This document shows positions 903-56,589 of a stretch of 64,000 bases of DNA, in pieces. The notes beneath the pieces were generated by a model, which had not been told where the DNA came from, ran no database searches, and saw nothing but the letters and a program-made list of their open reading frames with translations. How positions within the stretch are numbered: position 1 is the stretch's first letter; each line of letters starts with the position of its first letter. The stretch is from a virus: the IMG/VR virus record IMGVR_UViG_3300021598_001001, positions 98,061 through 162,060 of that record; one strand, written 5' to 3'. Position numbers and translations under genes: made by a program.

Positions 903-1088
903 ATGCAAACCATCAACAACAAAGTTACACGTTACAGAGTTACCTTGGACTTTACAGTTGATACATCTAACTGTGTAAGTCCTAAAGAATGGAATTGGGC
1001 TTCACTTCTCGAACTCGGTAACAACGAATCAGTCAATGAGGTTTATGTAGAGAACCTCGGAGAATATACCACTCGTAGGAGTAAGTAA
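903..1088 (+). CDS. Small hypothetical protein, 61 aa
   Basis: The protein starts MQTINNKVTRYRVTLDFTVD. Alternating polar/hydrophobic residues (YRVTLDFTV, VNEVYVENL) and a central WNWASLLEL suggest a small beta-alpha-beta fold. That pattern resembles short phage early proteins built on 'V.l.f.v.......p..w.w..ll', but no family can be named. It has its own promoter at 836-864. The leader is A/C-rich (GGACACACACTT) with AAGGA 9 bases before the ATG. Its stop overlaps the next start in TAATG (1086-1090), so the two are probably translated together. Confidence 0.7.
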   Translation: MQTINNKVTRYRVTLDFTVDTSNCVSPKEWNWASLLELGNNESVNEVYVENLGEYTTRRSK

Positions 1089-1237
1089 TGGACCTCACTA
1101 CCGCTCACCCTTACGGGGAAGAAAGTTTGTTCGATTTTGAACAAGAGATCAATGATCAGTATGCTGCTCAGTATGATGAAGATATGATCTTCGATGATTA
1201 CTCTAGTGGCATAGATGCTGAGAGTTATGATCCTTGA
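1088..1237 (+). CDS. Small very acidic hypothetical protein, 49 aa
   Basis: Coupled to the gene before it by a TAATG overlap. The sequence is strikingly acidic (FDFEQEIND, QYDEDMIFDDY) with almost no basic residues and is probably disordered. Small acidic phage early proteins often mimic nucleic acid or bind a basic host protein; that is inference only. It is the last gene before the 590-base non-coding region with the DnaA-type boxes. Confidence 0.6.
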   Translation: MDLTTAHPYGEESLFDFEQEINDQYAAQYDEDMIFDDYSSGIDAESYDP

Positions 1238-1258: not shown

Positions 1259-1307
1259 TGTTTTCCACAGCTTTATGATACCTTTGTGGAAAAAGCTGTG
1301 GAAAACA
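1259..1307. repeat. 16-bp perfect inverted repeat containing DnaA-type boxes
   Basis: Bases 1259-1274 (TGTTTTCCACAGCTTT) are the exact reverse complement of 1292-1307, separated by 17 bases. Each arm contains one TTTTCCACA box and the spacer overlaps a third (1285-1293). Confidence 0.85.
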
Positions 1308-1517
1308 AGCCATTAAAAAAAGGCTAAAAAAATCAAGCTTGTGTGAAAGCTTTCTCGTTTATGTTCTCTCTGTGGCCCCTCTGATGGCTTATAAAAAAGC
1401 CTCTGAGACCTTGTAATCTTAGCGGGCAGGCTATCACACGACCGCATAAATGTCAAGAGACCCCCCACATAAGTCTCCGGGACCACACAGTTTGAGCAAC
1501 ATAAGGTCTCACAGTTT

Positions 1518-1557
1518 CTTATAGTTTTCCACAGCACTTGTGGAAAAAGTCTATAAG
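1518..1557. repeat. Second inverted repeat containing DnaA-type boxes
   Basis: CTTATAG plus TTTTCCACA (1518-1533) faces TGTGGAAAA (1539-1547) and CTATAAG (1551-1557). The arms are perfect apart from a 3-base insert (AGT) in the right arm, and the loop is only 5 bases. A third box follows at 1558-1566. Confidence 0.8.
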
Positions 1558-1603
1558 TTTTCCACAGTCTTATGAGCACTCTAAGTCCCCCACATCTCGG
1601 AGC

Positions 1604-1632
1604 TTGACATAAGCTCTCTGAGGCCTTATAAT
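1604..1632 (+). promoter_or_regulatory. Perfect-consensus sigma70 promoter
   Basis: TTGACA (1604-1609), a 17-base spacer and TATAAT (1627-1632) match the consensus at all 12 box positions. The start would be near 1639. The first possible coding target is the frameshifted gene at 1831, so the leader would be about 190 bases, or the product could be an untranslated RNA. It lies about 40 bases after the last DnaA-type box. Confidence 0.75.
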
Positions 1633-2104: not shown

Positions 2105-2350
2105 ATGAGCACCATTAACGTCGCAACCGCTACCAAACTCGACCTGCTGATTGCTGATACTCAAGGGCAGATTAAGTACACCGTGCTCCCCACCCGTAAG
2201 GCTCGGAAATCTGAACTGCTCATGAGCCGCACGAATGGCGTCCGCACCAACACTAACCGTAAGGGTCAGGCATACAGCGGACATGCCACACATGCACAGA
2301 ATGCTGTGATGGAGGGCAATGCTGCTGCGTATTTCAAGACCAGCGGCTGA
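2105..2350 (+). CDS. Small basic hypothetical protein, 81 aa
   Basis: The protein starts MSTINVATATKLDLLIADTQ. It is basic in the middle (PTRKARKSELLMSR, NTNRKGQAYSG) and ends NAAAYFKTSG. A short beta-rich start followed by a basic, Ser/Thr-rich segment could bind nucleic acid, but there is no recognised domain. The leader is A/C-rich (ACCACACACTAACACC) without a Shine-Dalgarno, like those at 61 and 903. A 100-codon minus-strand frame covers the same DNA and is judged a shadow. It lies between two non-coding repeat regions. Confidence 0.55.
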   Translation: MSTINVATATKLDLLIADTQGQIKYTVLPTRKARKSELLMSRTNGVRTNTNRKGQAYSGHATHAQNAVMEGNAAAYFKTSG

Positions 2351-56359: not shown

Positions 56360-56589
56360 TGGATTTTGATGATCAATTTGAATTAGAACATTTATTTCTT
56401 ACTGAGAGAAAATGTAGAAAGTGTGGAAAAGTAAAAGATCTTATTGATGGTTTTTATCTTACGAGAAAAGGTAGAGGTGGCATAGCATCAGCATATTCAT
56501 ATGAGTGTAAAAATTGCACTATTCAAAGAATAGTCTCCAGTAGAATGACTAATAGAGTTTTTGATAAATGGGAATATCCTGACTGGTAA
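56359..56589 (+). CDS. Small zinc-ribbon protein, 76 aa
   Basis: TAATG-coupled to gp17. Two CxxC pairs, CRKCGK (near residues 14-19) and CKNCT (near 48-52), frame a short basic loop with the aromatic FYLTRKGRGGIASAYSYE. This is the zinc-ribbon layout seen at the start of HNH endonucleases ('C..CG..K....F....'), but the His-Asn-His part is missing, so it is either a zinc-binding adaptor or the remnant of a homing endonuclease. Genes like this between gp17 and gp18 are common in cyanophages. Probably binds DNA or a partner through zinc. Confidence 0.7.
   Translation: MDFDDQFELEHLFLTERKCRKCGKVKDLIDGFYLTRKGRGGIASAYSYECKNCTIQRIVSSRMTNRVFDKWEYPDW

Follow-up and report, generated by a model that had tools for sequence, protein, structure and literature searches.

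An array of cyanobacterial-type DnaA boxes within a conserved promoter region upstream of gene 25 in T4-like cyanophages

Described origins and DnaA-binding loci

The datA locus of Escherichia coli is a cluster of strong DnaA boxes that lies outside oriC and titrates DnaA, and the oriR of P1 serves a mobile replicon in which boxes next to an AT-rich region recruit DnaA from the host, alongside its own RepA and iterons. We know of no use of host DnaA by phage T4. The T4 origins oriF and oriG consist of a promoter and a downstream AT-rich DUE, with leading-strand synthesis primed by an R-loop that the transcript forms (PMC3016281). Among the major causes of death of marine and freshwater picocyanobacteria are the T4-like cyanophages, for which the site and mode of replication start are unsettled, as is evident from the contrast between the single theta origin predicted for Syn9 (PMC2984593) and the several R-loop origins of T4. 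On the bacterial side, TTTTCCACA is the DnaA box of Synechococcus elongatus, Anabaena and Cyanothece (PMC4674748), and the function of the Bacillus basal unwinding unit is orientation-dependent, with reversal of the box inactivating it (PMC6669920). DnaA titration is treated in PMC5835720 and PMC12371093.

We describe here a locus in a T4-like cyanophage that shares features with each of these systems. As at oriF and oriG, a predicted promoter reads into an AT-rich element, and the phage has gp59 and other T4-like genes. The locus departs from the T4 origins in carrying DnaA boxes, a term absent from the T4 review (PMC3016281), and T4 DNA has no cluster of TTTTCCACA, the sequence with which it was searched (the E. 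coli form is TTATCCACA). The predicted promoter also matches the host sigma-70 type with an extended -10, where an oriF/oriG-type origin would have a MotA-dependent middle promoter. The resemblance to cyanobacterial oriC and its basal unwinding system (PMC8287927) lies in the same box, present in tandem 3 bp apart and adjoining AT-rich DNA; unlike the cyanobacterial oriC, which occupies the thrC-dnaN gap, the phage locus lacks a DnaA-trio, has the opposite box orientation, more exact boxes and flanking promoters, and has no dnaN. It is like datA in being a box cluster outside oriC, but its boxes are set into an arrangement of conserved promoters and an AT-rich element, some between these and some beside them, and it differs from P1 oriR in belonging to a lytic phage of the T4 type. 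A search of literature available without subscription found no paper that describes DnaA boxes in a cyanophage.

Anatomy and distribution of the array

The window is a 64-kb stretch of a 162,060-bp virus record. An earlier note on this DNA had claimed six exact DnaA boxes in non-coding DNA of a T4-like phage, with a promoter at 1604, and this description is borne out: six exact copies of TTTTCCACA fall within 306 bp (1261-1566), at 1261(+), 1285(-), 1297(-), 1525(+), 1539(-) and 1558(+), in a non-coding gap that begins after an ORF ending at 1237; the contig carries T4-like cyanophage genes (gp20, gp21, gp22, gp18, gp17 and PsbA) together with the T4 helicase loader gp59; and a sigma-70 match begins at 1604. 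That account is extended here by a predicted leftward promoter, an AT-rich element, relatives without boxes and a distribution across the family. The features are as follows.

1088..1237, plus strand: last small ORF before the gap, pointing towards the locus
1261..1269, plus strand: DnaA box A1, exact; intact or with one mismatch in close relatives
1285..1293, minus strand: DnaA box A2, exact; 93% column identity in 10 relatives
1297..1305, minus strand: DnaA box A3, exact; 100% identical in 10 relatives, 12 bp from A2 and adjoining the AT-rich element
1306..1345, no strand: AT-rich element CAAGCCATTAAAAAAAGGCTAAAAAAATCAAGCTT, a candidate unwinding element; at the same place in relatives
1411..1424, no strand: conserved block TTGTAATCTTAGCG, the predicted initial transcribed region of P_L
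1428..1456, minus strand: predicted leftward promoter P_L, TTGACA-N17-TAGCCT with extended -10 TGTGATA, facing group A across the AT-rich element
1525..1533, plus strand: DnaA box B1, exact; kept by most close relatives
1539..1547, minus strand: DnaA box B2, exact; compared with close relatives
1558..1566, plus strand: DnaA box B3, exact; compared with close relatives
1604..1632, plus strand: predicted rightward promoter P_R, TTGACA-N17-TATAAT, a 12/12 sigma-70 match
2105..2350, plus strand: conserved downstream 81-aa ORF, used to fetch relatives

The order from left to right is thus group A, the AT-rich element, the conserved block TTGTRATCTTAGCG, P_L, group B and P_R. The whole virus record has eight copies of TTTTCCACA, six of them in the array, and the window has a seventh, lone copy at 56422(-), compared with a mean of 1.29 and a maximum of five copies in dinucleotide shuffles of the whole window. 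Across the window the looser TTWTNCACA rule shows no enrichment (10 seen against 10.7 expected), and the signal therefore lies in the exact cyanobacterial word and in how it clusters. Transposon-like repeats were considered and rejected, as there are no other box clusters elsewhere in the genome.

Boxes A2 and A3 are in tandem, 3 bp apart with AGC between them. Group A (1259-1307) forms a perfect 16-bp inverted repeat, and a shorter hairpin can form from the first two boxes of group B. The inverted repeats claimed earlier are therefore present, but they are not essential, since 19 of 56 non-redundant box groups have boxes in one orientation only and a hairpin is impossible there. Among ten close relatives A3 is invariant and A2 is 93% identical, versus 70% for 9-column windows outside the boxes, and there is more variation in the outer boxes A1 and B1. 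The 12-bp tandem pair formed by A2 and A3 recurs in S-PM2, S-CAM3, S-CREM1, S-H38, S-CAM1 and S-RIM32. Tandem steps are 11-12 and 20-22 bp and convergent steps 12-14 and 23-25 bp, or about one and two helical turns, in statistics that leave out the loci from the 12-bp-pitch IMG/VR scan because that scan selects for the spacing. The helically phased spacing, together with the third of groups that have no hairpin potential, indicates protein binding rather than RNA structure.

The first set of relatives, fetched through the neighboring 81-aa ORF, has the array at the same place. A blastn search with the gap alone recovered the named Kyanoviridae S-PM2, S-CAM1, S-CAM3, S-CREM1, S-H38, S-RIM8, S-RIM32 and P-TIM68, as well as the lake phages DSL-LC02 and DSL-LC03. 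As a guard against the bias of box-based searching, an unbiased screen was anchored on gene 25 only, using 25 non-redundant loci in which 5 kb or more of sequence precedes that gene. In this screen TTTTCCACA is the top-clustered 9-mer, with at least three copies within 350 bp in 13 of the 25 loci; the next-ranked 9-mers are shifted versions of it, and shuffled sequences gave none. These counts ignore shared ancestry, and many of the loci are metagenomic contigs. Conservation in relatives, which the earlier note had proposed as its main test, is seen. The clusters contain up to eight exact boxes in about 330 bp and lie 2.3-8.2 kb upstream of gene 25. In whole-genome searches box groups are present in Syn9, S-ShM2, S-RIM2, ACG-2014a, ACG-2014d, S-MbCM6 and Syn33, and absent in ACG-2014f, S-SKS1, P-SSM2, P-SSM4, P-HM2, S-RSM4, the T7-like P-SSP7 and T4; box counts are not raised outside the cluster. 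The array is therefore widespread among phages of Synechococcus-like hosts, as judged from these genomes, but patchy and not universal, several Prochlorococcus phages being without it. Syn9 and S-RIM8 keep only two boxes, and in Syn9 there is one box-pair locus.

We also note several local peculiarities. A second or larger box group lies several hundred bases rightward in ACG-2014d (L413 2170-2200), S-CREM1 (L202 3610-3650) and DSL-LC03 (L208 3372-3450), the last with five boxes in 73 bp. In S-PM2 (L201 2935-3091) the GenBank record places tRNA-Asn and tRNA-Leu right on top of the DnaA boxes; ARAGORN detects no tRNA within the surrounding 6 kb, so the annotation looks misplaced.

The promoters were counted with the upstream gene as anchor, in 25 non-redundant loci. 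The P_L pattern is present in 22 of these and the P_R pattern (TTGMCA-N16-18-TANNAT) likewise in 22, while at least two exact boxes are found in 14. In most loci P_R comes close to a perfect promoter. The box-less relatives S-SCSM2R, L037 and L475 keep P_L, P_R and the AT-rich element, so DnaA is evidently not needed there. The gap between the two -35 motifs has a median of about 66 bp where no boxes lie between them (n=38, including a few odd long pairs), and a median of 236 bp, with a range of 123-290 bp, where boxes do (n=20), although the test of this difference ignores shared ancestry. Because the promoters are kept at a tighter gap when boxes are absent, the boxes look like added cassettes, and the simplest reading is that they were gained by, or lost from, an older core of divergent promoters.

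Small genes, called mechanically as small ORFs, converge on P_L in about 31 of 42 loci, and P_L would therefore mostly have no gene to express; since the ORF at 1088..1237 points towards the locus, P_L would read antisense to it. S-PRM1 is an exception, with three real leftward genes after P_L.

The box on the host side

The earlier note had called the 9-mer a cyanobacterial DnaA box, and it matches both the published form and the box found at oriC of the Cyanobiaceae, where it is strongly enriched (12 exact copies versus 0.16 expected in 21 dnaN-upstream regions). These oriC regions often have the full unwinding unit TTTTCCACt-gtttcctca-CTACTACTACTA, and one Prochlorococcaceae MAG has two tandem box pairs in the thrC-dnaN gap. 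Most host origins have one or two exact boxes, and host genomes have 4-19 each. A DnaA DNA-binding domain is encoded in 10 of the 10 host genomes tested, and a search for a phage-coded DnaA found none in the phage. The ligand of the phage array is very probably host DnaA.

The origins of the marine hosts WH7803 and RCC307 have degenerate boxes only, and these two were rejected as donors of the array for that reason. At an apparently corresponding site outside oriC, WH7803 (L301 769-821; 1,819,368) and G009 (L299 709-762) each have two exact boxes that converge at a distance of about 45 bp; the site may be a DnaA-regulated promoter of the host or may serve titration.

Candidate functions

P_L and the AT-rich element together form a predicted promoter with AT-rich DNA downstream, as in oriF and oriG. 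In 18 of 30 loci the local instability of the element reaches the 95th percentile or more; in the phage under study it is only at about the 60th. Because P_L and the AT-rich element share the T4 plan, and because the phage has gp59, we tentatively prefer the explanation that the locus is an origin and early-promoter module of T4 plan upstream of gene 25, to which host DnaA sites have been added; we give it a little less than even weight. The elements on which this rests are evident in the sequences: the boxes, the predicted promoters, the AT-rich element, their conservation and phasing, and the presence or absence of boxes on the same core. The core of the module would be two back-to-back host-type promoters, with P_R directed into phage genes and P_L directed away through the AT-rich element, and the helically phased groups A and B would be host DnaA sites added to this older phage control module. 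Soon after entry, host RNA polymerase would fire both promoters, host DnaA would bind groups A and B and would bend the AT-rich element and hold it open, balance the two promoters, or do both, and the P_L transcript could provide an R-loop primer. Phage gp59, helicase and polymerase would then take over, leading to recombination-dependent replication. We infer DnaA occupancy, origin activity, R-loop formation and the order and timing of these events from the arrangement of the elements.

An origin role as such we also place somewhat short of an even chance. We count in its favor that A3, the group A box adjoining the AT-rich element, is invariant in ten relatives, that P_L mostly has no gene to express, and that Syn9, with a single predicted theta origin (PMC2984593), has one box-pair locus. 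Counted against it are the modest instability of the AT-rich element in the phage under study, the lack of a DnaA-trio, the orientation of A2 and A3 away from that element, the leftward genes after P_L in S-PRM1, and the retention of P_L, P_R and the AT-rich element by box-less relatives. The GC and AT skews of this phage, Syn9 and S-PM2, a signal confounded by gene content, have no clean switch at the locus and gave little guidance. The position of T4 oriF also weighs against it, being just downstream of gene 25, on the other side from the cyanophage locus. Strict synteny with oriF was rejected for this last reason. A substitution of DnaA for a missing T4 helicase loader was likewise rejected, as the phage under study has gp59. 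We note that among the genomes searched a Pfam gp59 N-terminal match is present in seven, including T4, and that there is none in S-PM2 and S-CAM3, whose gp59 is either diverged or missing.

The arrangement suggests that these T4-like cyanophages couple either early replication or an early switch in gene expression to host DnaA. It would connect a lytic phage of the T4 type with the host initiator in a way that can be tested, at a concrete, isolate-level candidate site in cultured phages for which the box-less relatives are natural controls. A bolder version, which we consider doubtful, is a hybrid origin in which host DnaA would license the first replication round in many T4-like cyanophages, with the virus reading the replication state of the host, and perhaps its light/dark state, ahead of any commitment.

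The strongest rival is a pure promoter switch, in which DnaA would act as a transcription factor only and its amount or ATP state would repress or activate P_L and P_R through groups A and B, with no origin. The position of group B between the two promoters, the longer gap where boxes intervene, and the near-perfect P_R of most loci are all as expected for such a switch, but the most constant part of the locus is group A beside the AT-rich element, and P_L mostly lacks a downstream gene; we regard a switch alone as rather unlikely.

Titration is a weaker rival, and an improbable one. Many phage copies would act as a decoy for host DnaA and halt initiation of the host chromosome, as datA does in E. 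coli, and it is consistent with this that a phage may have up to eight exact boxes in about 330 bp when most host origins have one or two and host genomes have few. However, a decoy would work wherever it stood with respect to the promoters and the AT-rich element, several phages (Syn9 and S-RIM8) keep only two boxes, and whole-genome counts show no excess of boxes outside the cluster. The three options raised in the earlier note therefore fare differently: the anatomy accommodates both an origin that recruits DnaA and a promoter switch, and a pure decoy fits less well because the position and helical spacing of the boxes are conserved relative to the promoters and the AT-rich element.

There is only a slim chance that the sites belong to another phage- or host-coded DNA-binding protein whose site equals the DnaA box by coincidence. 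The degenerate boxes at the WH7803 and RCC307 origins would accord with this, but what is enriched coincides exactly with the 9-mer DnaA box, a word also enriched at the Cyanobiaceae oriC, and the 3-bp tandem spacing matches known DnaA pairs.

Capture of a host oriC unwinding unit, with its DnaA boxes and DnaA-trio, is very improbable. The 3-bp separation of the tandem boxes and the AT-rich DNA next to them, and the one host MAG with the same tandem boxes in the thrC-dnaN gap, are reminiscent of such a unit. However, a CTA/TTA trio following a box is found in none of 38 phage loci, versus 9 of 33 host regions searched with the same pattern, and A2 and A3 point away from the AT-rich element whereas host boxes point towards the trio, a reversal that matters because BUS function is orientation-dependent (PMC6669920). 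The missing trio and the outward-facing boxes make the ordinary oriC route, and with it a canonical oriC unwinding unit at this locus, unlikely.

That the repeats matter as RNA hairpins or terminators is the least probable explanation of all, since although group A folds well in the phage under study (z -6.2), in 19 of 56 non-redundant groups the boxes all point the same way, the 3' arms have A and not U at their ends, an Rfam search of the locus gave no match at the gathering cut-off, and compensatory changes are absent while the 9-mer is invariant. Weak, sub-threshold miRNA-type Rfam matches to the inverted repeat were rejected.

Other repeats and a small gene occur around the promoters. In several lineages (for example L357 and L360) the P_L -10 and start region, corresponding to 1411-1456, lie inside a 7-bp inverted repeat, TTGTGAT-N15-ATCACAA, which is operator-like and a putative regulator site. 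Tandem repeats of AAAGCCTCTGAGACCTTGTG lie directly left of P_L at L025 1-110, and in freshwater relatives an iteron-like theme of the words CTCTGAG and CTTATGAGCAC runs across the whole gap. Downstream of P_R, a conserved small gene at 1830-2066 (containing TYNGYANYETWNAALWIG) has lost 10 bases just after the ATG relative to the four near-identical contigs L015-L018, which puts its start codon out of frame in the window.
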